DNA of 35,747 nucleotides, taken from an uncultured bacterium. Lineage in GTDB: Bacteria > Actinomycetota > Coriobacteriia > Coriobacteriales > Eggerthellaceae. This document shows positions 23,454 through 35,233 of the stretch, one piece after another. The stretch spans positions 1 to 35,747 of the forward strand of contig CANOCK010000006.1 of assembly GCA_947564525.1 (NCBI GenBank). Reading direction: 5' to 3'. Below the pieces are notes generated by a model. That model made no database searches. It was given only the letters and a program-made list of their open reading frames with translations, and was not told the origin of the DNA. Numbering within the stretch: the first letter of the stretch is position 1; each line of letters opens with the position of its first letter. The position numbers were made by a program, and so were the translations under genes.

Positions 23454-24560
23454 TCACAGGTTGCGCAGGCGCTCCACGGAATGCCATTCGGCCAGGGCCG
23501 CTGCCTGGGTGGCGCTCAGGTGCTCCGCAGAGTAGAAGTAGACGTCGCCGTTGCTGGCCTCGGTGCGGCCAATGTCAGCGTAGTCATCGCACCCGGCCGC
23601 CTGCTCGTAGAGCGCCTCCACCGTGGCGGCGTCAAAGGAGAAGGGCTCGTTGGCGAAGCTTTCGATGGCCATGGGCCGCGGGTAGACCCGCGACTCCTCC
23701 CGCACGCAGTAGACGAAGGCCACCAGCGGGTCGTCCTCGGCGGCCAGGAAGGCCCAGCGAGCGTAGGCGCCGGTCATCTCTGCGGTGTCGTAAAGGTAGT
23801 AGCCATAGGCGCCCATGAGGAGGGCCACCCCCTCGCAGCGGATGGGGCGTCGCTGGGGCAGCGCGTCCGGGTCCACCTGCACCAGCACGTACTCCCCGTC
23901 CAGCTCTGCCAGCTCATAGCCCTCGGGCAGCCGCAGCCCCTCGAAGGAGCCCTCGTCGCCAGCATCGTCGGGGCCCACCAGCGTCAGCTGTCCCTCCACC
24001 TCCACCAGCTCGCAGCCGTCCGCCGCAAGGGCACCGCCGGGCGCCTCGAGCGACGGAGCAGGGACGTCACCCGACGACGCGTCCGCTTCGCCAGAGCCGT
24101 CGAGCCGAGAGCCGAGCGCCGTGGACGGGCCAGCCTTGTCGGGCGCTCCCTGCTCCCCGGACCCTTCGCCCAGCGTCCCGGCGCCGGCGCCGCCGATGGC
24201 CGGCGGCACGCCCACCCCGCGGGAGGCGAAGGGCGAGGGGCCCTTGGGCGCCGTCGGCTGCGGGGACGCCAGCGGGTCGCTCGCCAGGAACGAGCCGCCC
24301 TCGTCCGGCCGGCCGTGCTCCTCGTACCAGGCCATGAGGTGGTCGTAGACCATCATCTCCAGGTCCTCGCCGCTCATGTGCTCCGGCACCAAGCCCTGCT
24401 CGGCCCACTGGGCCGGGGTGGACAGCACGCCGGCCGCCGAGGCGGCGGCCACCGCCTCGAACACGGCGGCCAGGGCGTTGTGCTCGGCGATGGCCTGCCG
24501 CTCCTCCTCGCGGCCAGCGGCACCCCGACCGCCGCCCAGACCCTCGGAAGGCGCGCTCAT
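23454..24560 (-). CDS. Unrecognised protein coupled to the NifU-like gene
   Basis: 368 residues. The ATG overlaps the NifU-like stop as ATGA, with AAGGGG upstream, so translation is coupled. Residues 15-95 are helical and acidic (ALAAVFEAVAAASAAGVLSTP, then GEDLEMMVYDHLMAWYEEHG). Residues of about 100-185 are a disordered Pro/Gly/Ser/Ala linker. Residues of about 190-368 form an acidic alpha/beta region with many aromatic residues (LMGAYGYYLYDTAEMTGAYARWAFLAAEDDPLVAFVYCV). No signal peptide, membrane segment or cysteine motif is visible. I recognise no family. The coding call rests on the overlap, the consistent amino acid make-up and the third-position GC bias. It could act with the Fe-S scaffold, but that is context only. 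Confidence 0.75.
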   Translation of the reverse strand: MSAPSEGLGGGRGAAGREEERQAIAEHNALAAVFEAVAAASAAGVLSTPAQWAEQGLVPEHMSGEDLEMMVYDHLMAWYEEHGRPDEGGSFLASDPLASPQPTAPKGPSPFASRGVGVPPAIGGAGAGTLGEGSGEQGAPDKAGPSTALGSRLDGSGEADASSGDVPAPSLEAPGGALAADGCELVEVEGQLTLVGPDDAGDEGSFEGLRLPEGYELAELDGEYVLVQVDPDALPQRRPIRCEGVALLMGAYGYYLYDTAEMTGAYARWAFLAAEDDPLVAFVYCVREESRVYPRPMAIESFANEPFSFDAATVEALYEQAAGCDDYADIGRTEASNGDVYFYSAEHLSATQAAALAEWHSVERLRNL

Positions 24561-25171
24561 CCCAAAGCCCCTTCCGCGCTCGTCACCTCGGCCACCAGCA
24601 GCTCCACGCGCCCGTCGCGCAGCGAGCAGTGCTCGCAGAGGATGCAGTCCAGGGAATCCTGGTCGCAGGGCAGCTGCTCGTCCAAGGACGCCAGGGTGGC
24701 GCCCTCGCGCACCAGCCAGTCCCCCACTAGCGCCCGCACGCATTCCGCGGCGAAGACCGGGGTATGGGCCTTGTCCCACGGAACGCCGTCCACCGCGTGG
24801 CGCACGTCCTCGGCAGTGACGGCCAGCGCCTCGGCGAAGGTGCGCCCCTCGACCACCTTGCAGACCATGCTGGCGCAAGCGGTCATGGCCAGGCAGCCGC
24901 GCGTCTTGAACCCGATGCGCTCGATGCGCCCCGCCTCGCCGTCCATCACCGCGAACAGCCGGACCGCCACCTCGCCGCGCTTGGACTTGCCCACCATGGC
25001 CTGGGCGTTGAACCCCTCGGGCGCGCCGCCGTTGTCGTAGTTCGCCACCAGGGCGAGCACGGTGTCGGAGTAGCCCGTCACGTCGTCGTCCAGCTCGTCT
25101 TGGTACACGTCTCGGGTGCGCAGGACGAAGCGCTCCCGCGGCTCCAGGTACACGTTGCGCCCTTCTCCCAT
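24557..25171 (-). CDS. NifU/IscU-like iron-sulfur scaffold protein, cysteine pattern altered
   Basis: 204 residues from the ATG at 25171 (GGGAGG 8 bases upstream; an in-frame start at 25219 lacks a site). Residues 35-155 follow the NifU_N fold: GFKTRGCLAMTACASMVCKVVEGRTFAEAL matches the scaffold stretch with Cys93, and Cys144 (AAECVRAL) matches the third ligand. The first ligand position, normally in a GAPxCG segment, is here GGAPEGF with no cysteine. Additional cysteines are Cys99 and Cys104, plus a C-terminal set Cys169, Cys176, Cys179 and Cys182 (CX6CX2CX2C) that could hold a cluster. No SufS/IscS desulfurase gene is nearby. Probably Fe-S assembly or transfer, but possibly a divergent member with another role. 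Confidence 0.82.
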   Translation of the reverse strand: MGEGRNVYLEPRERFVLRTRDVYQDELDDDVTGYSDTVLALVANYDNGGAPEGFNAQAMVGKSKRGEVAVRLFAVMDGEAGRIERIGFKTRGCLAMTACASMVCKVVEGRTFAEALAVTAEDVRHAVDGVPWDKAHTPVFAAECVRALVGDWLVREGATLASLDEQLPCDQDSLDCILCEHCSLRDGRVELLVAEVTSAEGALG

Positions 25172-25313
25172 GGGGTCGACCTCCCGTCTCGTCACCGAAT
25201 CGACCGCATTATCCTGCATCCCCTGATGCGGCGCGTCCCCTCTTTAAGGGGCTTCGAGCAAAATGCTCCCTCATGGCGTACACTGGGAAGGGTCCGAAGG
25301 AGATGCACGCAAG

Positions 25314-26888
25314 ATGGTCCACGCAATCCCGTCGATCCGCTCCCTGGCCCCCGTCATCGCAGGCCTGGCGCTGGCCCGCGCTAGCCTCACCGCTGGCAGC
25401 TACGGAAGCTACGTTGGCACCGACGGGGGCATGTTCGCCGACAGCACCACGCTGCTCATGCTCTTGGTCATGGCCTTGGGGCTGATCGCGCTCATGACGA
25501 CCCGCCACGCCTTCACCGACCGGACCGTGCGCCGCACCAGCGCAGCGCTCATGACGGCCGAGGGCGCGCTCCTCGCCATAGAGGCGACCCTGGCAGCGCT
25601 CGGCGCCCTAGAGGGCAGCGCGCGCCTGCTCCTGAGCTCCGGCGTGGCCCTGGCAGCCAGCGGCGCGATGTTCTTCTGGCTGCGGCTCGCCAAGGGCGCG
25701 CCCAGCGCCCTGGCGGTCACCCTGGTGTTCGGCGCCCTGGCCGCGAGCGAGCTGATCTTGTGGGCCTTCGCCCTCATGCCCTACCCTGCCGCCTTGGCCT
25801 TGGCCGCCCTCGGCGCCTTGGGGCAGCTCCCCGCCGTGAGAGCCGTCCCGACGCGCAAGGCGGCCGCAGCCGAAGAGCCGAGCGCCGAGGGGGAGCCGGC
25901 ACCGCCCACTTACTTCGGCGTGAGCCGCAAGCGCATGGAGGATGCGGCCTTCCTGGTGGCCACCGCCTTCGGCATCGGCCTCATGGGCGTTGTCGCCGGG
26001 CTCCTGCGCGGCTACCCCGATGGGCTGCCCATCGCCTTCACCCCCGGAACCCGCGCCGCCTACGCCCTCCTCACCATGGCTGCCAGCGTGGCCTTGGTCG
26101 TGCTGGCCCAGCGCGGCACCCGCCTCGTCATGACCATAACCGTATGGGTGCTCGTGCAGCTCATGGCCTGCGCTGCCCTGGTGGGCTATGCGCTGTGGCC
26201 GGAGGCTTGGGAGGTCGGGGCTGTGTTCGCGGGGTCGCTGAACTCCCTGATGCTCGGCGTGGTGTGCTACACCATCATCGCCTTCGAGACCCACGGTTGG
26301 CGCGATGCCGCCTACTACGCCTTGGCCGGATGGCTCGTCTGGTTCGGCAGCCGCACTCTCGCGCGCTTGGGGCTGCTAGCGCTCCATCCCTTCAGCATGG
26401 ACACGCTGGCGGTCAACGCCGTGATGACCGCCCTCATCGTGTCATCCACTCAGATGCTATTCGCCAGCTACCTGCGCAACGTGGCCCTCAACGCCGACGA
26501 CGACGCCCAAGCAGCCGAGAAGGCCCTGGCGGCGGCCACGGAGGCGGCCGAGGCGTCCGCCGAACCATCCTCCCCGGCCCCTTCGGGCGCCACGCCAGCG
26601 GTGCCCTTGGCCCGCCTCATGGGCCTGGATGGCCCCCAAGCCCCTGCGAGCGAGCGCCAGGTCGCCATGCAGCGCAGCATCGCCCAGCTGGGAAGCCAGT
26701 TCCTGCTCTCAGAGCGCGAAGTGGAGGTGCTCACGCTCTACGCCCAGGGCTACACCCAGAAGAGAGTGGCCGAGGCCTTGTTCATATCCCAGGGCACCGC
26801 CCACACCCACATCAAGCGCATCTACACCAAGACCGGCATGCACTCGCGTCAGGACATCCTGGACTACCTGGAGAAGTACGTCTCCTAG
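25314..26888 (+). CDS. Membrane-anchored LuxR-family transcriptional regulator
   Basis: 524 residues from the ATG at 25314 (AAGGAG at 25297-25302). Residues of about 8-395 are roughly ten to twelve hydrophobic segments with short loops. A linker rich in Ala/Glu/Pro follows, then a GerE/LuxR helix-turn-helix at about 464-524 (LLSEREVEVLTLYAQGYTQKRVAEALFISQGTAHTHIKRIYTK). There is no receiver or ligand domain; the membrane part presumably senses a signal. This architecture is abundant in Eggerthellaceae, often beside inducible molybdoenzyme genes. Here it lies between the NifU-like gene and the AFOR, 276 bases from the latter. Short palindromes upstream (CCCCT/AGGGG at 25237-25251 and GAGCA-AAA-TGCTC at 25256-25268) may be regulatory. 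Confidence 0.9.
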   Translation: MVHAIPSIRSLAPVIAGLALARASLTAGSYGSYVGTDGGMFADSTTLLMLLVMALGLIALMTTRHAFTDRTVRRTSAALMTAEGALLAIEATLAALGALEGSARLLLSSGVALAASGAMFFWLRLAKGAPSALAVTLVFGALAASELILWAFALMPYPAALALAALGALGQLPAVRAVPTRKAAAAEEPSAEGEPAPPTYFGVSRKRMEDAAFLVATAFGIGLMGVVAGLLRGYPDGLPIAFTPGTRAAYALLTMAASVALVVLAQRGTRLVMTITVWVLVQLMACAALVGYALWPEAWEVGAVFAGSLNSLMLGVVCYTIIAFETHGWRDAAYYALAGWLVWFGSRTLARLGLLALHPFSMDTLAVNAVMTALIVSSTQMLFASYLRNVALNADDDAQAAEKALAAATEAAEASAEPSSPAPSGATPAVPLARLMGLDGPQAPASERQVAMQRSIAQLGSQFLLSEREVEVLTLYAQGYTQKRVAEALFISQGTAHTHIKRIYTKTGMHSRQDILDYLEKYVS

Positions 26889-27013
26889 GACCCAAGGCCC
26901 GGCGCTCGCGGACCTGCGCGATGCGGCCGGGCCCGCAGGGCCCAGCCCAGCCCTCCTGGGCACGAGCCAGCCCGAGCCGCAGGGCCCGCTGCCCCTCCTG
27001 CCCCTAAACGCTC

Positions 27014-27050
27014 GCGCGCCCCCTCGGGCACGATGCCCGAGGGGGCGCGC
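27014..27050. terminator. 17-bp perfect GC hairpin between convergent genes
   Basis: Positions 27014-27030 (GCGCGCCCCCTCGGGCA) are exactly inverted at 27034-27050 around CGA. It lies 126 bases after the LuxR stop and 114 bases after the AFOR stop on the other strand, so it can work in both directions. Neither side has a T-tract, which makes ordinary intrinsic termination uncertain. The flanking 26889-27013 sequence is Pro/Gly-codon-like and shows no gene. Confidence 0.5.
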
Positions 27051-27134
27051 AGCTCCAGCGAAGGGGCCTGGCCGCCCTTCGCAAAGGCAGCCAAGCCGCA
27101 GGTCCGCACCAGGCCCGGCGAATCGCTTGCGAGA

Positions 27135-27154
27135 AGCCGCCCCGACAGGCGGCT
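27135..27154 (-). terminator. Short hairpin after the AFOR gene
   Basis: AGCCGCC (27135-27141) and GGCGGCT (27148-27154) can pair, starting 11 bases beyond the AFOR stop on the minus strand. It is followed by TTCTCG, with only a weak T run. It may assist termination together with the larger hairpin at 27014-27050. Confidence 0.4.
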
Positions 27155-27164
27155 GCGCGCGAGC

Positions 27165-29315
27165 TTAGGGCAGCAGCCCCAGGCCGGCCAGCTCCTCCTT
27201 CACGTCGGGCATGTCATAGTAGTCCAGGCACGCCGCCGTGGGGCAGCCCAGGCTCTCGTCCCACCCGAACTTGCCGTAGGTCATCTTCAGGGCCCGGTCG
27301 AAGTCGTCCCGGTCCATCTTGTCAGTGCCTGCGGTGAAGGGCTGCTTGTCGGGATCCTTCGTGAACACCCACTCGGTGATCTTGTCGTGGATGCCGTGCA
27401 GGTCGTTGCAGCCCATCTTGCCGTCGGGGCCGACCATAGAGCGCACGGTGTTGGCGCGCTGCAGCGTCATGATCTTGGCGCCGGCCTTGTACAGGTCCTC
27501 CGTGGTCACGTCCTGGCCGGTGACGGCCTTGTAGAACTTCGCCTCCAGGTCGAGGTCGCCACGATAGTCGCGAGCCTTGGTGGGGCTCATGGTCATGGGC
27601 CACACCCAGTTGCACAGCGTGAGCGAGTCGTGCAGCACGTCGGTGACGATGGACCACCAGGCGAAGTTGGCCTTGTGGTCGTTCATCGGGGTGTAGTCCT
27701 TGTTGGCGTCCACGGCGTCCTCGCCGCCCCAGACCTCCGCCGCGATGGCCTTCTTCAGCTCGATGGGGAGCCCGCAGCCCTGGAAGTTCACCGCCGAGTG
27801 GATCATGTCATCGCGGTTGAACATCATGTTGTAGACGCCGCCCACCTGGCCGAAGCACTCGATGGCATGGTGCACGGGCCAGCCGCGGTAGTTGATCAGG
27901 CACGACTTCGCCTGGTCGTACCAGCCCTTGTCGTTCCAGCGCTCGGTCCACACGATGGGGCCATGGGCCACGTAGGCCATCTCGTTGTCGTTCTGGGCGA
28001 TGTGCTTGAGGATCTTCACCATGAGAGAGGGATCGTTGTTCTTGAAGCCGTCCCAATCGAACTGGGCGTACTCCTCCTTGGGCAGCACGCGCTCGAACAC
28101 CCCCGCCGCGTAGCAATGGGCGATGTCGCGGTAGAGCTGCGCATAGTTGCACCATAGCCCCAGGTCGTCCACGGTGGACCCCATGGCCTGGTTCCAGACG
28201 GTGGATTCCTGGGTGTTGTCCTTGATGCTGGTCTTGTCCCCCAGGATGCCGATCATGTACTTGAAGGGGAAGTTGGTCACACAGGTGTTGCCAGTGGTCT
28301 CGAAGCCGCCGTTCTGCTCGCTCTCGGGCACCCGCAAGTCGGAGTAGCAGTGGATGGGGCAGCTATGGCAGCCGTTCATCTTGATGGTGTACTTCTCGGC
28401 AGCGGGGCCGTCGTCGTAGACGCTCTTCATGCAGCGATAGCCCACGGTGTTCAGCTCGCCAGGCTTGGGCTCGCCGGTCTCGATGGGCTCGCCTTCGGCA
28501 TCGGCCCAGTACAGGCCCTTGCGGGCCGACCAGCGCGACCCCTTGTCGTAGTACTCGGCCCATTCCTGCTGGGTCTGGGGCACCACATGGTTGTTGTTGG
28601 AGCCGATGATCTCGCGCAGCATGTAGTCGGACAGGTCGGCGACGGCCTTCGGATCGGCCACGTTCACCGCGCCATTGCCCTCCACGTAGAGGGCCTTGAG
28701 GTTCTTCGAGCCCATCACCGCTCCCACCCCAGCGCCGGCCGAGTGGTTGCGGGAGTTGATGACGCAGGCGTAGGGCAGCAAGTTCTCGCCCGCCGGCCCG
28801 ATGGCGGCCACGCACCCCCGGGTGCCCTCGACGCGGGCGATGGCCTCGGTGGTGGCGCGGGTGCCCTGGCCCCACACGAAGCCCGCGGGCTTGATCCTCA
28901 CGTCGTCGTCTCGGATGGCCAGGTACACCGGCTGGTCCGCCTTGCCCTCCAGCACGATGGCGTCGTAGCCGGCCTGCTTGATATGGGCGCCCAGCATGCC
29001 GCCGCAGTGGGCGTCCACCACCTGGTGGTCGGTGGTGTAGGTGGAAAGGGACGCGATGGTGGTGCGGCCCGCCAGGGGCACGCCGGAGGCCGTCAGCGGG
29101 CCCACCGCGTAGACCACCTTGTTCTCAGGAGCCAGGGGGTGGGTGCCCGCGGGCACCTCGTCGTACATGATCTTGTTGGCCACGCCCATGCCGCCCACGT
29201 AGTCCTTGTAGGGCTCGGTGGACGTGGTGGTCACGGTGCCGTGGGTCAAGTCGACGCGGAGAATCTTGCCGGTCCAGCCATAGGACTTCTTCGCGTCCTT
29301 CTTTGCGTCAGCCAT
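27165..29315 (-). CDS. Aldehyde:ferredoxin oxidoreductase family protein (tungstopterin enzyme)
   Basis: 716 residues, ATG at 29315 with GGAG 9 bases upstream. The N-terminal AFOR domain includes YVGGMGVANKIMYDEV, the pterin-binding RNHSAGAGVGAVMGSKNLKA (189-208) and CGGMLGAHIKQAGYDAIVLEGKAD. The [4Fe-4S] ligands fit Cys316, Cys319, Cys323 (CHSCPIHC) and Cys568 (LTLCNW), the same CX2CX3C...C layout as archaeal AOR. There is no signal peptide, so it is cytoplasmic. At 716 residues it is about 100 longer than the archaeal 605-residue AOR. The family oxidises aldehydes to acids with ferredoxin and usually uses tungsten; the substrate here is unknown. It is divergent from the Fe-S/TorD/Psr operon, and a ferredoxin gene lies further downstream at 35045. 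Confidence 0.93.
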   Translation of the reverse strand: MADAKKDAKKSYGWTGKILRVDLTHGTVTTTSTEPYKDYVGGMGVANKIMYDEVPAGTHPLAPENKVVYAVGPLTASGVPLAGRTTIASLSTYTTDHQVVDAHCGGMLGAHIKQAGYDAIVLEGKADQPVYLAIRDDDVRIKPAGFVWGQGTRATTEAIARVEGTRGCVAAIGPAGENLLPYACVINSRNHSAGAGVGAVMGSKNLKALYVEGNGAVNVADPKAVADLSDYMLREIIGSNNNHVVPQTQQEWAEYYDKGSRWSARKGLYWADAEGEPIETGEPKPGELNTVGYRCMKSVYDDGPAAEKYTIKMNGCHSCPIHCYSDLRVPESEQNGGFETTGNTCVTNFPFKYMIGILGDKTSIKDNTQESTVWNQAMGSTVDDLGLWCNYAQLYRDIAHCYAAGVFERVLPKEEYAQFDWDGFKNNDPSLMVKILKHIAQNDNEMAYVAHGPIVWTERWNDKGWYDQAKSCLINYRGWPVHHAIECFGQVGGVYNMMFNRDDMIHSAVNFQGCGLPIELKKAIAAEVWGGEDAVDANKDYTPMNDHKANFAWWSIVTDVLHDSLTLCNWVWPMTMSPTKARDYRGDLDLEAKFYKAVTGQDVTTEDLYKAGAKIMTLQRANTVRSMVGPDGKMGCNDLHGIHDKITEWVFTKDPDKQPFTAGTDKMDRDDFDRALKMTYGKFGWDESLGCPTAACLDYYDMPDVKEELAGLGLLP

Positions 29316-29762
29316 GATCGCTACTCCAAATCTCTTCTTGATACGAGGGTTGCCGTCGCTCATCCAAGGCCGCGATCTGAAGCTCAGCGGAAATCGTGTC
29401 CGCCTCCCCATGGACGCGGATGAGCCGCAGCTTACCAGGGGGCAGTCGAGCCCCCTCCCCTCTTTGGGGGTAATCCCTCCATCAGGGGCAACGACGCCCC
29501 ATAGCCCCTGCTCGCGCAAGGGGAAGGCCCTGCAGCCTCCTCCGGACGAGGCCATCGCATCGCTCGTCCGCCCGGATCGCGGAAGCGCCTTCGGGCTGAC
29601 GCCCGTCCCTTCTCCATCCCTTTCCCCTGAGATAGGAGATGCGCTCCCGTTGCCGTCCCGTAAGGTAAATGCCAGTTGCCGAAGCTCACCTCCGGACCGC
29701 ACGAGAGAGGACATCGTAGAAGACGATACCCACCTGCACACATGGGGGAGGTAGGAACCAAC
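29316..29762. other. 447-base divergent control region between AFOR and Psr-like operon
   Basis: No gene is visible. The region is rich in small hairpins: GGGGGC/GCCCCC (29438-29455), GGGGC/GCCCC (29485-29500) with an alternative partner GCCCCTG (29504-29510) for CAGGGGC (29483-29489), and CGGACGAG/CTCGTCCG (29543-29570). GTTGCC occurs twice, at 29649 and 29675. Competing stems in a long leader could attenuate transcription or bind a ligand; I recognise no named riboswitch. Promoters for both sides must lie here, but I cannot place them with confidence. The Fe-S gene has GGGGGAGG at 29744-29751. Confidence 0.5.
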
Positions 29763-30509
29763 ATGACAGACCCCGAGAAGAACACCGCTGCCGAGCAGCC
29801 CACGACGATCGCTGCGAGCCCAGACGCCGAGGCGCACTCCGAGGCCGCTGCGGGCACGCCCAAGAGGAAGCTGAACGTCACGCGTCGCCAGGTGCTCGCC
29901 ATGGCCGGCTGCGGCGTGGCCGGCCTAGTGGTCGGCGGATTCCTCGCATCCTGGGGCGTGACCCAGAAGTCCATCGCCTCGGGCCGTATCGAGCTGCGCA
30001 CGACGCCCACCAAGATGATCGTCACCGACCGCGCTCGCTGCTCCGGCTGCCAGCGCTGCGAGATGATGTGCACGCTCAAGAACGATGACCGCGTGCAGCA
30101 GAGCATCGCGCGCGTGCGCGTGCGCGACAACTACTTCTTCGGCGCCAGCCCCGACACCAACGACGGCATCTACGACAACTGCGAGTTCACCGTCGAGCAC
30201 TGCAAGCAGTGCGCCGACCCTGCGTGCGCCGAGTACTGCCCGGTGCACGCCATCCACTCCGACAGCCGCACCGGCGCCCGCGTGGTGGACGAGGGCACCT
30301 GCATCGGCTGCGGCATGTGCAGCCAGGCATGCCCCTGGAACATGCCGCGCGTGGACTCCCAGACCGGCGTGTCCACCAAGTGCGTCTCCTGCGGCCGCTG
30401 CGCCGAGCAGTGCCCCAACGGCGCCATCGAGTTCGTCGACTGGCAGGACGTCGCCCAGAAGGTCATCGACAGCGGCGCCGTGCGCACGGTCACCCTGGTC
30501 GAGGCCTAG
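29763..30509 (+). CDS. Tat-targeted ferredoxin-like protein with four [4Fe-4S] clusters
   Basis: 248 residues, ATG at 29763 after GGGGGAGG and AGGA. A hydrophilic 40-residue leader is followed by TRRQVLAMAGCGVAGLVVGGFL (twin arginines 41-42), a Tat signal or signal anchor. Four cysteine quartets follow: Cys93/96/99/103, Cys147/150/155/159, Cys180/183/186/190 and Cys207/210/213/217. This is the DmsB/HybA-type electron-transfer fold, here with its own export signal, as in HybA-like proteins. The TorD-like gene follows after 27 bases, so it belongs to the molybdoenzyme operon, while its divergent neighbour is the cytoplasmic AFOR. Relatives are often annotated next to AFOR genes. The unusually long n-region before the twin arginines is notable. 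Confidence 0.9.
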   Translation: MTDPEKNTAAEQPTTIAASPDAEAHSEAAAGTPKRKLNVTRRQVLAMAGCGVAGLVVGGFLASWGVTQKSIASGRIELRTTPTKMIVTDRARCSGCQRCEMMCTLKNDDRVQQSIARVRVRDNYFFGASPDTNDGIYDNCEFTVEHCKQCADPACAEYCPVHAIHSDSRTGARVVDEGTCIGCGMCSQACPWNMPRVDSQTGVSTKCVSCGRCAEQCPNGAIEFVDWQDVAQKVIDSGAVRTVTLVEA

Positions 30510-30536
30510 GCGCCCACAGGGAAGGGGAAGGTGACC

Positions 30537-31262
30537 ATGGAGGACCAGGCGGTTTTCTCGGTGCTGGCCCAGTGCTTCGGGCCCTTGGAGCGCAAGGAGT
30601 GGGAGGCGCTGACCGCGCCAGCGCTCTGGGACGACTTCCTGACGGCAGCGCGCAGGCTGCTGCAGGACGAGCGGCCCCTCGGCGCCGAGGTCCCGAGCAG
30701 CGCCTCGCTGGCATCGCGCCGGCCGCTGCAGGAGTTCCTCTCCGAGAAGGAGCTGACCGCGCTGTTCGCGCCGCCTGCCTTCGAGGACATGGAGCGCTTC
30801 GCCGCTCGCCACTTCACCGGCGGGCTGCCCGCCTCGGCCATGCCGATCGAGTCGCTGTACCGCCCGTGGAGCCTGGACGGCGCCACGGCCCTCCCGCGAG
30901 AACACGGCTGCTACGGCGGCCAGTCCGCCCGTTACGTGGCCGACCTCTGCCAGCGCCTCGGGCTCGAGGTGCCCGCGGCCTTCGCCGCCTACCCCGACCA
31001 CTTGGCCCTGGAGCTGGACCTGGTGGCGGTGCTGCTGCGTTCCGGCATGGCGGCCGAGGCCCGCACGTTCCTGATGGAGCGGTTCGCCTGGCTCACCGAC
31101 TACCGGCAGCGGCTCATCGCCCTGGGCGATGCCAGCTTCCCCATAGCGCTGGTGGATGTCATCCTGGGCATCCGCACCCAGCAAGAGGAGGTGGCAGCCG
31201 CCCTTCCGCAGGGCGCCGAGGCCACCCGACCCCAACGACCGGTTACGAACGTTCGCCAATGA
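30537..31262 (+). CDS. TorD/DmsD-like molybdoenzyme maturation chaperone
   Basis: 241 residues from the ATG at 30537 (GGGGAAGG upstream; a GTG at 30531 would add two residues). All-helical, no signal peptide. The TorD-family signature appears as YPDHLALELDLVAVLLRSG around residue 153. Such proteins bind the Tat leader of a molybdopterin enzyme and hold the apoenzyme until cofactor is inserted. The gene directly precedes the Tat-dependent molybdoenzyme (16-base gap), its expected client. The last 20 residues (about 222-241) are a loose polar tail. Confidence 0.9.
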   Translation: MEDQAVFSVLAQCFGPLERKEWEALTAPALWDDFLTAARRLLQDERPLGAEVPSSASLASRRPLQEFLSEKELTALFAPPAFEDMERFAARHFTGGLPASAMPIESLYRPWSLDGATALPREHGCYGGQSARYVADLCQRLGLEVPAAFAAYPDHLALELDLVAVLLRSGMAAEARTFLMERFAWLTDYRQRLIALGDASFPIALVDVILGIRTQQEEVAAALPQGAEATRPQRPVTNVRQ

Positions 31263-31278
31263 TAGAGAGGAAGCAACT

Positions 31279-33486
31279 ATGTCAGAACACGCTATGACGC
31301 GGCGCAGCTTTCTGGCTGGGAGCGCTGGCGTGGCCGCTGTGGCGGCCGCAGGCGGCTTCATGGGCTTCGGGGCCTGGCAACAGGCCATAGCGAAGGAAGA
31401 GGAGCCTCCCGGGCGCACCGAGGTGGTGCACACCCTGTGCAACGCCTGCTCCAGCAAGTGCGGCTACGACGCCTACGTCGTGGACGGCAAGCTCACCAAG
31501 CTCATCGCCGACGAGGCGCATCCCTACGCCCAGGGGAAGATCTGCGGGCGCGGCTACGGCTACTCCCAGATCGCCTACTCGCCCGACAGGCTGACGGACC
31601 CGCTGAAGCGGAGCGCCGACGGGTCGTTCGAGGCCATCAGCTGGGACCAGGCCCTCGACGAGATCGGCCAGAAGGTGCGCGAGATCGTGGAGAAGGACGG
31701 CCCCCAGGCCCTGGCCATGGTGCAGGACCCTCGGCCTTCCGGCAAGTACTACACCAAGCGCTTCATGAACGCCCTGGGCAGCCCGAACGTCTACACCCAT
31801 GGCGCAGCCTGCAACCTGTCCAAGGAATCAGGGTTCACCCAGGCCATCGGCACCGGCAACTTCGAGTCGGACGTGGAGCGGTCCAAGATGACCATGTTCA
31901 TCGGGCGCAGCTACGCCGACGCCATCCGCCCCAGCTCGGTGGCGGCCCTGCAGCGCGCCCATGAGAACGGCGCCCACATCGTGCTGGTGGACCCGCGCCT
32001 GAGCAACAGCGCGGCCTTCGCCGACGAATGGGTGCCCATCAACCCCGGCACCGACCTGGCGCTCATCCTTGCCATGGCCAACGTCCTGATCGACCAGGGG
32101 CTCTACGACAAGGCCTACGTGGCCGCCAACGCCGTGGGCTTCGACGAGTGGGCCGCCGCCATAGCCGGCCTCACTCCGGAATGGGCCGCGCCCATCACGG
32201 GCATCGAAGCCTCCACCATCCGACGCCTGGCCACCGAGTTCGCCAATGCGGCGCCGGCCGCCTCCATCGAGCCGAGCTGGCGGGGCGCCTTCGGGTGCTC
32301 CTACCGCAACTCCGGCGAGACGGCTCGAGCCCTGTGCCTGTTCAACACGCTGCTCGGCTGCTGGAACCAGGAGGGCGGGGCGCTGTTCACCTCGGGCGTG
32401 TCCGTCGGCAAGCTCGACCCGGAGAAGTTCCCCTCCACCCCCAAGATCGAGGACGCCATCATCGGCTCGGTGGAGTACCCGCTGGCCCTGAAGTCCATGG
32501 GCACGAACCTCTACGCGGCCCAGATGGCCAAGACCGGCAAGATCAAGGGCATGTTCTTCTACAACTCGAACATGGCCGCCGGCTACTCGAACCCCGCGGA
32601 GCTGGCCAGCTTCCTCGACCGCCTGAAGCTCATGGTGGTCATCGACGTCCAGATGTCCGAGACGGCCCAGCTCGCCGACTACGTGCTGCCGGAGTGCAGC
32701 TTCCTCGAGCGCATGGAGCTGCCGGAGTTCGTGGGCGGCAAGACGCCCGTGGTCACCTTGCGCGACCAGGTGCTCGACGTCATCCACCCGAACACGCTGC
32801 CGAGCGACCAGATCTTCGCCAAGCTGGCCCAGGCCTGCGGCGTTGGGGAGTACTTCGACTTCACCGTCGAGGAGCTGGCCGACGCGCAGCTCAGGACCGT
32901 GGGGCTGAGCCTAGAGGAGCTGCGCGAGGCGGGCACCATCGCCTTCCCGGAGAAGGCCTACTCCTACGGCGCCACCCCCAAGTGGAAGACGCCCACGGGC
33001 AAGGTGCAGTTCGCCAGCGACGCCTGCGAGAAGGCCGGCCTGCCGCGCTGCCCCGTCTGGATGGAGCCCGAGGTCATGCCCGATGCCAGGGCCGGGGAGT
33101 TCCGCTTGATCGGCGGCAAGCAGGCCATCCACAGCCATACCCAGACCGCCAACATCGAGGCGCTCATGGACATCACGGAGGAGTACGGCCTCGACCGTGC
33201 CTGGATCAACGCCTCGGTGGCCCGCGACCTGGGCATCGAGGACGGCGGCCTGGTGGTGCTCCACAACGAGCTGTTCGACGGCCCGATCCGCGTGAAGGTG
33301 ACCGAGCGGTTGAACCCCACGGCCATCTACCTGCCCAGCCACTACGGCTGCTCCTCCAAGGACCAGCATACCGCCTATGGGGTGGGCTTGAACGTCATGG
33401 ACTTCGTGCCCTTCCACATAGAGCCCGGCTACGGCGGCGCCATGACCCAGGAGACGGTGGTCAAGATGCAGAAAGCAGGTGAATGA
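31279..33486 (+). CDS. Tat-exported molybdopterin oxidoreductase, Psr/Phs-like catalytic subunit
   Basis: 735 residues, ATG at 31279 behind GAGAGGAAG. The Tat signal TRRSFLAGSAG has its arginines at 8-9, and a likely cleavage site lies after AIA (36-38). An Fe-S motif at Cys54, Cys57, Cys61 and Cys89 binds a [4Fe-4S] cluster. The bis-MGD domains follow, ending in a molybdopterin-dinucleotide-binding domain from about 610 (FRLIGGKQAIHSHTQTAN). The likely molybdenum ligand is Cys178 in YTHGAACNLSKESG, as in polysulfide/thiosulfate reductases; DMSO reductases use Ser. The next two genes encode its Fe-S and NrfD partners, so it forms a membrane-bound complex facing outward. Substrate is undetermined: polysulfide, thiosulfate or an organic acceptor are all possible. 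Confidence 0.93.
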   Translation: MSEHAMTRRSFLAGSAGVAAVAAAGGFMGFGAWQQAIAKEEEPPGRTEVVHTLCNACSSKCGYDAYVVDGKLTKLIADEAHPYAQGKICGRGYGYSQIAYSPDRLTDPLKRSADGSFEAISWDQALDEIGQKVREIVEKDGPQALAMVQDPRPSGKYYTKRFMNALGSPNVYTHGAACNLSKESGFTQAIGTGNFESDVERSKMTMFIGRSYADAIRPSSVAALQRAHENGAHIVLVDPRLSNSAAFADEWVPINPGTDLALILAMANVLIDQGLYDKAYVAANAVGFDEWAAAIAGLTPEWAAPITGIEASTIRRLATEFANAAPAASIEPSWRGAFGCSYRNSGETARALCLFNTLLGCWNQEGGALFTSGVSVGKLDPEKFPSTPKIEDAIIGSVEYPLALKSMGTNLYAAQMAKTGKIKGMFFYNSNMAAGYSNPAELASFLDRLKLMVVIDVQMSETAQLADYVLPECSFLERMELPEFVGGKTPVVTLRDQVLDVIHPNTLPSDQIFAKLAQACGVGEYFDFTVEELADAQLRTVGLSLEELREAGTIAFPEKAYSYGATPKWKTPTGKVQFASDACEKAGLPRCPVWMEPEVMPDARAGEFRLIGGKQAIHSHTQTANIEALMDITEEYGLDRAWINASVARDLGIEDGGLVVLHNELFDGPIRVKVTERLNPTAIYLPSHYGCSSKDQHTAYGVGLNVMDFVPFHIEPGYGGAMTQETVVKMQKAGE

Positions 33487-34028
33487 TGGCACGCTACGGA
33501 ATGCTGATCAACACTAAGAAGTGCATCGGCTGCTACGCCTGCCGCACGGCATGCCAGCGCCAAAACGACCTTCTGCCCGACGAGGCCTTCATCCGCTTCG
33601 AGGAGCGCGAGGAGGGCGCCTACCCCAACGTGGCGGTGGAGCACGTGCCGCTGCAGTGCATGCACTGCGAGGACGCCCCGTGCGCCAGCGTCTGCCCCAC
33701 GGGCGCTGCCCACATGGGGGCCGACGGCATCGTGAGCGTGGACCAGGGGCGCTGCATCGGCTGCCTGTACTGCATGGCCGCCTGCCCCTACCAAGTGCGC
33801 TCGCGCAACTCCCAGACCGGCGCCGTGGACAAGTGCCGCTTCTGCACGGTGTCCTCCCACGAGAACGGCACCAAGATGTGCTCATGCGTGGACGCCTGCC
33901 TGACCGATGCGCGCATCTTCGGCGACCTGGACGACCCTAACAGCGAGATCTCGAAGGCCATCGTCAAGGAGCACGCCACGCCCCTCAAGGGCGACCTGAC
34001 CCGAGCCAAAGTCTATTACGTGAGGTGA
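33486..34028 (+). CDS. Four-cluster Fe-S electron-transfer subunit (PsrB/DmsB-like)
   Basis: 180 residues. Two adjacent ATGs overlap the molybdoenzyme stop (33483 and 33486); I chose 33486 because AGGTGA then has normal spacing. Cysteine groups are Cys13/16/19/23, Cys58/61/66/70, Cys90/93/96/100, and Cys117/120 with Cys132/134/138, enough for four [4Fe-4S] clusters. There is no signal peptide; it should be exported bound to its Tat-bearing partner. It carries electrons between the NrfD-type membrane subunit and the molybdoenzyme. Its overlap with the preceding gene and short spacing to the next show one operon. Confidence 0.94.
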   Translation: MARYGMLINTKKCIGCYACRTACQRQNDLLPDEAFIRFEEREEGAYPNVAVEHVPLQCMHCEDAPCASVCPTGAAHMGADGIVSVDQGRCIGCLYCMAACPYQVRSRNSQTGAVDKCRFCTVSSHENGTKMCSCVDACLTDARIFGDLDDPNSEISKAIVKEHATPLKGDLTRAKVYYVR

Positions 34029-34033
34029 TTTTC

Positions 34034-34930
34034 ATGACGTTCGAACCGATATGGGGCTCCATCATCGCGTGGTACCTCTTCCTCGCGGGCTTGGGCGGTG
34101 GCGCCTACGTGAGCGCGGCGTTCCTGCGGTGGCGCCACCCCGAAGCGGTGGCCATGATACGCATCGGGCGCTTCATCGCCCCGGTGACCGTCGTCATCGG
34201 CCTGTGCCTGCTCATGTTCGACGCCACGGCCGGCCTCCAGCATCCCTTGCGCTTCGCGCTGCTGCTGACCAACTTCGGCTCGGTGATGACCTGGGGCGTG
34301 GTGTTCCTGGGCGCCTTCACCCTGCTGTCGCTGGCGGGCGCCGGGCTCAGCCTGGCCAAGCGGGACGTGCCCTGGGGGCTGGACATAGCCGCTGCGGCCT
34401 TCGGCGTGTGCGTGGCCATCTACACCGGCTGCCTGCTCGGGGTATGCAAGACGTTCCCGCTGTGGAACAACGCGCTGCTGCCCATCCTGTTCCTGGTGTC
34501 GGCCCTGTCCACGGGCATGGCCGCGGTGCTGGTGGTGGCGATCGTGCGCCATCCCGAGGAGTTCAACCGCGTGGGCGTGTTCAAGAAGTTCCACTTCGTG
34601 CTGCCCCTAGTGGAGCTCTTGCTGGTGGCGTCGCTGTGCTTCGTCACCGCCTCCAACGCCTCGCCGGCGGGCTACGAGTCGGTGATGAGCCTGGTGGCCG
34701 GCGAATGGTCCGTGGTGTTCTGGCTGCTGTTCATCGTGGTGGGCCTGGTGGGCCCGACGCTGCTGGAGACCTGGCTGCTGTTCTTCTCGCCCCGGGAGTT
34801 CGAGGAGAGCCGCAAGGCCCATGTCATCAGCTTCGCCTCGGACGCCGGCGTGCTCGTCGGCGGGTTCGTGCTGCGCCTGCTGGTGCTGGTGGCAGCCGTG
34901 CCGATCACCATGGTGACCCCCTGGCTGTGA
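34034..34930 (+). CDS. NrfD/PsrC-like membrane subunit (quinone-reactive)
   Basis: 298 residues from the ATG at 34034 (GAGGTGA upstream; a GTG at 34025 is possible). About eight membrane segments cover nearly the whole chain. It begins with the NrfD-typical WGSIIAWYLFLAGLGGGAYVSAAF, and further on has CKTFPLWNNALLPILFLVSALSTGMAAV. It anchors the molybdoenzyme/Fe-S pair and exchanges electrons with menaquinol. It is the last gene of the operon, followed 57 bases later by a perfect-palindrome terminator. NrfD subunits lack haem, and no cytochrome gene lies in this window. Confidence 0.93.
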   Translation: MTFEPIWGSIIAWYLFLAGLGGGAYVSAAFLRWRHPEAVAMIRIGRFIAPVTVVIGLCLLMFDATAGLQHPLRFALLLTNFGSVMTWGVVFLGAFTLLSLAGAGLSLAKRDVPWGLDIAAAAFGVCVAIYTGCLLGVCKTFPLWNNALLPILFLVSALSTGMAAVLVVAIVRHPEEFNRVGVFKKFHFVLPLVELLLVASLCFVTASNASPAGYESVMSLVAGEWSVVFWLLFIVVGLVGPTLLETWLLFFSPREFEESRKAHVISFASDAGVLVGGFVLRLLVLVAAVPITMVTPWL

Positions 34931-34987
34931 GGCGAAGGGGCCCATGCCCGAGGGGCTGACGGCGCACAGCCGGAGGTCCCGCCCATG

Positions 34988-35017
34988 AGAAGAGGCCGCC
35001 CGCGGGCGGCCTCTTCT
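34988..35017. terminator. Bidirectional terminator between nrfD-like and ferredoxin genes
   Basis: A 30-base perfect palindrome whose arms read AGAAGAGGCCGCCCG and CGGGCGGCCTCTTCT. On the plus strand it runs into CTTCTTGCTTATT, a T-rich tail. On the minus strand it lies 27 bases after the ferredoxin stop. It serves the convergent ends of both genes. Confidence 0.75.
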
Positions 35018-35044
35018 TGCTTATTGGATCTATGGGGCGGCGAG

Positions 35045-35233
35045 CTAGTCCTCGACGACCTCCGGAATGGCACCCATGGGGCACTCCTCGACGCAGTCGC
35101 CGCAGGCGATGCACGCCTCCTCGTTCACGGACTCCGCAACGCCGTTGACGACCTCCAGCACCTCCTGGGGGCACGCGTCAACGCAGATGCCGCAGCCGAT
35201 GCACTCGTCAGCTTCAATAACTGGATGTGGCAT
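35045..35233 (-). CDS. Small 2[4Fe-4S] ferredoxin
   Basis: 62 residues, ATG behind AGGAG with 6-base spacing. Two classical motifs are present: Cys11/14/17/21 (CIGCGICVDACP) and Cys41/44/47/51 (CIACGDCVEECP). The size and symmetric halves match clostridial-type bacterial ferredoxins, which are low-potential cytoplasmic electron carriers. It is transcribed toward the Psr-like operon and ends at the shared terminator. It may be the electron acceptor of the AFOR at 27165, though a general housekeeping role is equally possible. Confidence 0.93.
   Translation of the reverse strand: MPHPVIEADECIGCGICVDACPQEVLEVVNGVAESVNEEACIACGDCVEECPMGAIPEVVED

Follow-up and report, generated by a model that had tools for sequence, protein, structure and literature searches.

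Background

YdhV-type enzymes have recently been assigned to the Class V tungsten oxidoreductases (WOR), as clade 41 (PMC13328260, 2026). We describe here a locus for such an enzyme in an uncultured bacterium of the family Eggerthellaceae and compare it with its counterparts in related genomes. The stretch of DNA analysed, called the window below, covers 35,747 nucleotides; it makes up the opening 35.7 kb of contig 6 in a draft genome of 1.93 Mb that is 86% complete. In the main text of PMC13328260 the Class V enzymes are characterized by a small subunit with a twin-arginine translocation (Tat) signal, by association with the membrane and by the use of W or Mo depending on the species. According to the same text, no activity is known for a YdhV-type enzyme in any organism, and the one Class V member made heterologously was inactive on 46 aldehydes, in a preparation from which the small subunit was absent. 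Clade 41 already lists Eggerthella, Gordonibacter, Slackia and Collinsella, and for the Coriobacteria that text names only an 'unknown pyranopterin-containing subunit'. A 2025 review (PMC12096430) places Cys336 of Escherichia coli YdhV on the metal, as in the benzoyl-CoA reductase BamB, and reports that the second-shell residues found in true aldehyde oxidoreductases are missing from YdhV. FNR, NarL and NarP control the E. coli ydh operon, to judge from the title of a 2008 paper by Partridge et al. cited in PMC4549865. Membrane LuxR-type regulators, some of which switch on adjacent metalloenzyme genes when the substrate is present, are described in the main text of PMC9734109, which names no palindromic operator.

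The YdhV gene of the window lies in an island together with genes for an exported small subunit (YdhY), a PhsA-like subunit with its NrfC- and NrfD-like partners, a membrane LuxR-type regulator and probable helper proteins. We propose, with a probability of about 0.58 for the model as a whole, that this island is a single regulon serving an exported Class V WOR, which would be linked to the quinone pool through PhsA-NrfC-NrfD. The model draws on the conservation of the gene order, on the frequent absence of the Mo ligand from the PhsA-like subunit and on a candidate operator.

The locus and the genomes compared

The YdhV gene and the Psr-type operon are divergent and separated by a 447-bp region. 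The features of the locus are as follows.

23454..24566, minus strand: YdhW-family gene, probable helper (NCBIfam NF007411, E=2.5e-27, under the curated cut-off)
24557..25219, minus strand: NifU_N-like protein, probable Fe-S assembly helper (Pfam PF01592, E=1.5e-16)
25314..26888, plus strand: membrane LuxR-type regulator (C-terminal GerE domain, residues 465-518, E=7.8e-15)
27165..29315, minus strand: YdhV-type large subunit, Class V WOR (AFOR_N 219.6 bits, AFOR_C 112.2 bits)
29456..29472, no strand: palindromic operator candidate TCCCCTC-TTT-GGGGGTA (comparative evidence, consensus TACCCTC-N3-GAGGGTA)
29763..30509, plus strand: YdhY-type Tat-linked four-cluster small subunit, WorS (NF007382; 40% identity to YdhY)
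30531..31262, plus strand: TorD-like chaperone for the Mo enzyme (Pfam PF02613, E=1.4e-8; TorD model, E=3.7e-5)
31279..33486, plus strand: PhsA/PsrA-like subunit with Tat signal, one [4Fe-4S] cluster and Mo-ligand Cys178 (match to 2vpw)
33483..34028, plus strand: NrfC/PsrB-like four-cluster subunit (39% identity to E. coli YdhX)
34025..34930, plus strand: NrfD/PsrC-like membrane subunit with the quinone site (Pfam PF03916, E=4e-35; 8 hydrophobic segments)
35045..35233, minus strand: two-cluster ferredoxin of 62 amino acids (open reading frame)

The comparison set comprised 138 Eggerthellaceae genomes and 40 YdhV neighbourhoods, each of up to 20 kb.

A conserved gene arrangement

An AFOR-type match was found in 96 of the 138 genomes, and about 69 carried the YdhV type. 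The YdhV and YdhY genes were divergent in all 40 neighbourhoods. YdhY was followed by PhsA-like, NrfC-like and NrfD-like genes in every one of the 38 loci uncut by contig ends, the PhsA-like gene of locus L062 being truncated, and nearly all loci carried the NifU-like and YdhW genes on the opposite side of YdhV. The window and some relatives have the block of NifU and LuxR genes in inverted orientation.

An earlier note on this DNA had described, between positions 25314 and 35233, an AFOR and a Psr-like operon sharing one control region, flanked by a membrane LuxR regulator and a ferredoxin. All of the genes that it named are present, and their order, which recurs in about 40 related loci, is not a matter of chance; the AFOR and the Psr-like operon form one conserved unit, with a shared control region and strong adjacency in relatives. 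One refuting observation that the note had named, a lack of such adjacency in related genomes, was thus not borne out. The limits drawn for the unit were correct only in part. On the left it extends beyond 25314, to the NifU-like and YdhW-family genes, both conserved with it. On the right the ferredoxin is to be left out: it lies near the locus only in L060, L072, L069 and L139 and is otherwise not conserved there, which rules it out as a member of the unit. The window ferredoxin is 76-77% identical to the one encoded beside LuxR in the Slackia loci L060 and L072.

The sister genus Collinsella and its relatives have YdhY beside YdhV, usually with LuxR, YdhW and NifU nearby. The 15-18 kb examined around YdhV/YdhY in this group contained no gene for PhsA, NrfC or NrfD. 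The core of the system is therefore YdhV-YdhY with YdhW, NifU and LuxR, and the PhsA-NrfC-NrfD module is an addition of the Eggerthellaceae.

Identity and probable export of YdhV and YdhY

The AFOR-family protein of the window scored 1050 bits against NCBIfam NF007354, the E. coli YdhV family (cut-off 868), and was 52% identical to YdhV of E. coli K-12 in a direct comparison with the ydhYVWXUT region. The Tat-linked four-cluster protein reached 212 bits against the YdhY family NF007382, just under its cut-off of 213, with 40% identity to E. coli YdhY. The YdhW-family gene, which is kept at the locus, matched E. coli YdhW with 32% identity over 123 amino acids (E=9e-17). Cys345 of the window YdhV aligns with the metal ligand Cys336 of the E. 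coli protein and is invariant across the YdhV alignment; with this ligand position the protein falls outside AFOR sensu stricto, which has no protein ligand.

The window YdhY carries the Tat motif TRRQVLAMAGCGVAGLVVGG. A twin-arginine motif ahead of a hydrophobic stretch was present in all 40 YdhY proteins of relatives, where it includes TRR, as well as in the 10 Collinsella-group YdhY proteins inspected, and no signal peptide was seen in the YdhV proteins inspected. From this combination we infer that YdhV is probably exported piggy-back with YdhY. Membership in a class without known aldehyde oxidation, together with an exported partner, counts against a cytoplasmic aldehyde oxidase, which is the less likely reading of YdhV.

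The leader just before YdhV (29275-29320; AGATTTGGAG, minus strand) is strongly conserved in 25 of the 40 loci. It probably serves ribosome binding, yet it is longer than that role alone would predict. A second, distant AFOR-family protein is encoded elsewhere in the same genome, outside the window (G000:C7:17872-19878); it shows 39% identity over the N-terminal part and is not YdhV-type by adjacency.

Two forms of the PhsA-like subunit

The best solved match of the window PhsA-like protein is the Thermus polysulfide reductase 2vpw (E=2.7e-90), and its score against the PhsA equivalog model is 392 bits, below the cut-off of 694. It keeps the four Fe-S cysteines and Cys178, aligned with Thermus Cys173, the established Mo ligand of that enzyme. 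In 26 of 39 loci, the window among them, this cysteine was conserved; in 12 others the position held A, S, T, R, E, H, N or V, and the remaining copy was the truncated one. Among the loci compared by organism name, which overlap partly with the genomes of the 39-locus set, the ligand-bearing form occurs in Paraeggerthella, Gordonibacter, Eggerthella sinensis, Rubneribacter and Senegalimassilia, and the ligand-less form in Adlercreutzia equolifaciens, A. caecimuris, A. muris, Parvibacter caecicola, Slackia exigua and S. isoflavoniconvertens.

The loss is not confined to the ligand. When 69 ligand-bearing sequences were compared with 41 ligand-less ones, His174, Arg210, Lys614 and His620 were invariant in the former and never retained in the latter, and the four Fe-S cysteines were retained in more than 95% of the ligand-less sequences. 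The ligand-less genes are under purifying selection, with ratios of non-synonymous to synonymous substitution (dN/dS) of 0.05-0.33, and their products retain the pterin-dinucleotide domain (Pfam PF01568). The structure predicted for one of them (predicted local distance difference test score, pLDDT, 86) had a polysulfide reductase as its best match, with a template modelling (TM) score of 0.82. Decay into pseudogenes is ruled out by the open frames, the dN/dS values and the retained fold. A substitute cysteine as Mo ligand is likewise ruled out, nearby cysteines being merely sporadic and at inconsistent offsets.

The TorD gene was absent from 12 of the 13 ligand-less or truncated loci, versus 4 of the 26 ligand-bearing ones (plain Fisher test ignoring relatedness, p = 5e-6). 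In a test of independent events all differing pairs pointed in the same direction, their number being too small for significance.

The two forms of PhsA have been swapped in place, even within Adlercreutzia. A tree built from the neighbouring proteins requires 7 changes of state to account for the ligand-less form. In the PhsA tree all ligand-less forms fall on one side of a single branch (support 91/99), and holding each of three mixed clades together was rejected (p = 3.6e-6, 2e-4 and 1e-7), tests to be read with caution given the long branches. Between A. hattorii, which keeps the ligand, and A. caecimuris, which has lost it, the DNA is 86.5% identical through YdhV and YdhY as far as the YdhY stop codon; similarity is then lost over most of PhsA and returns near its 3' end, continuing through NrfC and NrfD. 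Two ligand-less species gave a continuous DNA alignment of 6.9 kb. In G049, the other genome of the genus to which the window belongs, PhsA is ligand-less at the YdhV locus (L033). The tests on the PhsA tree, together with the gene-sized break in Adlercreutzia, rule out that the ligand was simply lost by vertical descent.

Further loci of this kind were observed. Second, more distant YdhV loci (59-64% identity) occur in Eggerthella, Rubneribacter and Parvibacter-like genomes (L168:7711-12909, L170:10013-15358 and L171:4696-9772), where PhsA is more degenerate still and has Gly at the ligand position. At L172:9728-18764 two TorD-PhsA-NrfC-NrfD sets in tandem follow one YdhV/YdhY pair, each of them retaining the Mo ligand.

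A dedicated regulator and its candidate operator

The window LuxR protein has at least 8 strongly hydrophobic segments at a strict hydropathy cut-off, followed by the C-terminal GerE domain. Its best match lies beside YdhV in 53 of the 54 genomes with both on one contig. The regulator noticed earlier at the flank of the island is thus dedicated to this locus.

A palindrome, TACCCTC-N3-GAGGGTA, was found in the divergent YdhV/YdhY region of 33 of the 40 loci. The window copy is not significant alone, as 0.77 matches are expected at 3 mismatches, and the case for it is comparative. Of the 138 genomes, 32 contain the core pattern, with 33 occurrences in all, nearly always at the YdhV locus, and a reversed control pattern gave no occurrence in the 138 genomes. 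The palindrome was missing in all 5 loci examined from genomes lacking this LuxR, versus 5 of the 37 LuxR-bearing loci (Fisher p = 3e-4, relatedness ignored). It was not found at the stand-alone ligand-bearing PhsABC loci beside other LuxR genes. In many loci a second copy lies between LuxR and NifU, which suggests that LuxR is autoregulated. A scan for Sigma-70 promoters in the divergent region gave no match.

Six loci (L163-L167 and L169) hold ligand-less PhsA-NrfC-NrfD sets with a LuxR gene of their own and with neither YdhV nor TorD nearby. Four of these sets bear a variant palindrome, such as TACCCCCTTAGGGGGTA. In Slackia (L164:2079-4942) the ligand-less set adjoins a gene for a protein that has CxxCH motifs and weakly resembles SorA-type sulfite dehydrogenase (E=3.5e-10), together with a second, similar protein, as a possible partner.

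Proposed function of the locus

In the proposed model, YdhV (WorL) would fold in the cytoplasm around a W/Mo-bis-molybdopterin (bis-MPT) cofactor, bind the four-cluster YdhY (WorS) and be carried with it across the membrane by the Tat system. Outside, the electron path would run between YdhV and menaquinone at NrfD, over the YdhY clusters, the single [4Fe-4S] cluster of PhsA and the four clusters of NrfC. The PhsA-like subunit would be mainly a docking and electron-relay piece whose own Mo site is dispensable. The NifU-like and YdhW proteins are probable helpers in cofactor assembly, and the membrane LuxR probably binds at the palindrome and switches both transcription units together.

Two regularities point to this assignment. 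One locus in three has a PhsA without its active site and still keeps the whole arrangement, so that sulfur reduction is unlikely to be the purpose of the locus, and the conserved role of PhsA is probably that of an electron relay. The Fe-S chain YdhY-PhsA-NrfC-NrfD is always kept, which suggests that PhsA-NrfC-NrfD is the quinone link of exported YdhVY. The idea that the Tat-linked Fe-S protein provides the connection, one of two routes put forward in the earlier note, is supported; that the locus exists for a terminal reductase of the Psr type becomes doubtful with so many relatives carrying the Mo-ligand-less version. As for its history, a sulfur-reductase-type molybdoenzyme may have been co-opted across the Eggerthellaceae as a relay for YdhV, the true terminal enzyme, with a Mo-competent and a Mo-ligand-less version of the relay exchanged in place by recombination between the conserved genes on either side; we hold this account tentatively, at slightly under even odds.

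Several observations weigh against the exported, quinone-linked model. The Collinsella loci have YdhV and YdhY without PhsA-NrfC-NrfD, so that YdhV does not depend on the link in every lineage. PhsABC sets that bear the ligand, most of them with TorD, occur without YdhV nearby, as do the ligand-less sets of L163-L167 and L169 beside other LuxR genes. Four ligand-bearing loci are without TorD and one ligand-less locus has it. Finally, the window PhsA retains a complete Mo site and TorD, and may thus be catalytic as well.

The Collinsella loci, the stand-alone ligand-bearing sets and the intact Mo site of the window are also what would be expected if the locus encoded two enzymes that are jointly controlled but work separately, namely an exported YdhVY and an independent Mo reductase of the PhsABC type, induced together, possibly for two steps of one pathway, with ligand-less PhsA merely stabilising NrfC and NrfD. 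This explanation does not account for the strict linkage in the 38 uncut loci, nor for the Fe-S cluster of ligand-less PhsA, which a purely structural role would not need, and we consider it unlikely.

The earlier note had instead proposed that a cytoplasmic aldehyde oxidoreductase passes its electrons by way of a soluble ferredoxin to a Psr-like terminal reductase outside. The AFOR fold and motifs, the ferredoxin gene nearby in the window and the lack of a signal peptide on YdhV itself are in keeping with it. Against it stand the Cys ligand of a Class V WOR, with aldehyde activity not found so far (PMC12096430 and the main text of PMC13328260), the export of the small subunit, the poor conservation of the ferredoxin, which is no part of the unit, and the loss of the Mo site from the would-be reductase in one locus out of three. 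This scheme appears quite improbable. The inducible pathway imagined along with it is plausible as such, with a LuxR protein that is family-wide and not a strain-specific sensor of one dietary compound.

Ligand-less PhsA might also be a metal-dependent catalyst acting on another substrate, its Mo or W coordinated solely by the two pterins, as happens in arsenite oxidase. The retained fold, PF01568 domain and purifying selection would fit, but this reading is more improbable still, as the residue at the ligand position varies freely (A, S, T, R, E, H, N, V, L) and no replacement is preferred, other residues invariant in the ligand-bearing forms are lost too, TorD is nearly always gone and the branches are long.

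Under the model of an exported, quinone-linked YdhVY, the direction of catalysis can be given only a modest preference. We lean towards quinol-driven reduction of an extracytoplasmic compound over oxidation of a substrate, because the metal ligand is BamB-like, the E. coli operon is under FNR, NarL and NarP, and the respiration of the Eggerthellaceae is rich in reductases.

Comparison with known systems

The locus resembles E. coli ydhYVWXUT in YdhV, YdhY, a YdhW relative, the NrfC-like subunit (YdhX) and the presence of a membrane subunit, the cofactor of the E. coli YdhV being bis-Mo-MPT. It differs in that the E. coli operon has a cytochrome b (YdhU) in place of NrfD and lacks a PhsA-like subunit, a NifU-like gene and LuxR. 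The E. coli genes are co-directional, whereas those of the window are divergent, and the full twin-arginine pair, absent from E. coli YdhY and present on YdhX, is carried in the window by YdhY.

With clade 41 of the Class V WOR the locus shares the YdhV-family large subunit, the Tat-linked small subunit and a membrane subunit, which would belong to the same complex. The assignment of YdhV/YdhY to Class V, their presence in these genera and a pyranopterin subunit in Coriobacteria are already known. Loss of the Mo ligand and its exchange, a LuxR operator and linkage to NifU are absent from the main text of PMC13328260 on this clade. Within the literature searched, the loss of the Mo site with exchange in place, the linkage to a NifU-like gene, the dedicated LuxR with its operator and the Collinsella loci without the quinone module appear to be new, with partial overlap possible in the supplements of that paper.

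PsrABC/PhsABC (2vpw) has the same A-B-C order, a Mo-ligand Cys and Fe-S cluster in A, a four-cluster B and a C subunit of the NrfD/PsrC type. The window PhsA differs in its score under the equivalog cut-off, in being always tied to YdhVY in these loci and in a ligand that is often lost. The Eggerthella regulators DadR, CadR and HcdR, with 10-12 transmembrane segments (main text of PMC9734109), share with the window LuxR the polytopic N-terminus, the GerE helix-turn-helix and the position beside a metalloenzyme cluster; they are strain-specific, whereas the window LuxR is found family-wide beside one locus, with a palindromic operator proposed for it.

YdhV-type enzymes are present in E. coli and widespread among gut Coriobacteria, and the locus gives a handle on their function. 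The dedicated regulator and near-unique operator could report the inducer of the YdhV locus, the partner genes for joint expression with YdhV are defined, and the natural ligand-less versions of PhsA show for which part of the complex catalysis is not required.

The ligand-less relatives resemble the menaquinone reductase QrcABCD and alternative complex III in having a non-catalytic subunit derived from a molybdoenzyme within a quinone complex of the NrfC/NrfD type. The partner here is YdhVY, and no gene for a multihaem cytochrome c of the QrcA type, the cytochrome c subunit of that system, is present among the open reading frames read around the window locus. While QrcB is devoid of cofactors (PMC13059093), the [4Fe-4S] cysteines persist here, in the ligand-less relatives too. 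With its Mo site lost and its Fe-S cluster kept, ligand-less PhsA is thus an intermediate between the working complex iron-sulfur molybdoenzymes and the inert QrcB.

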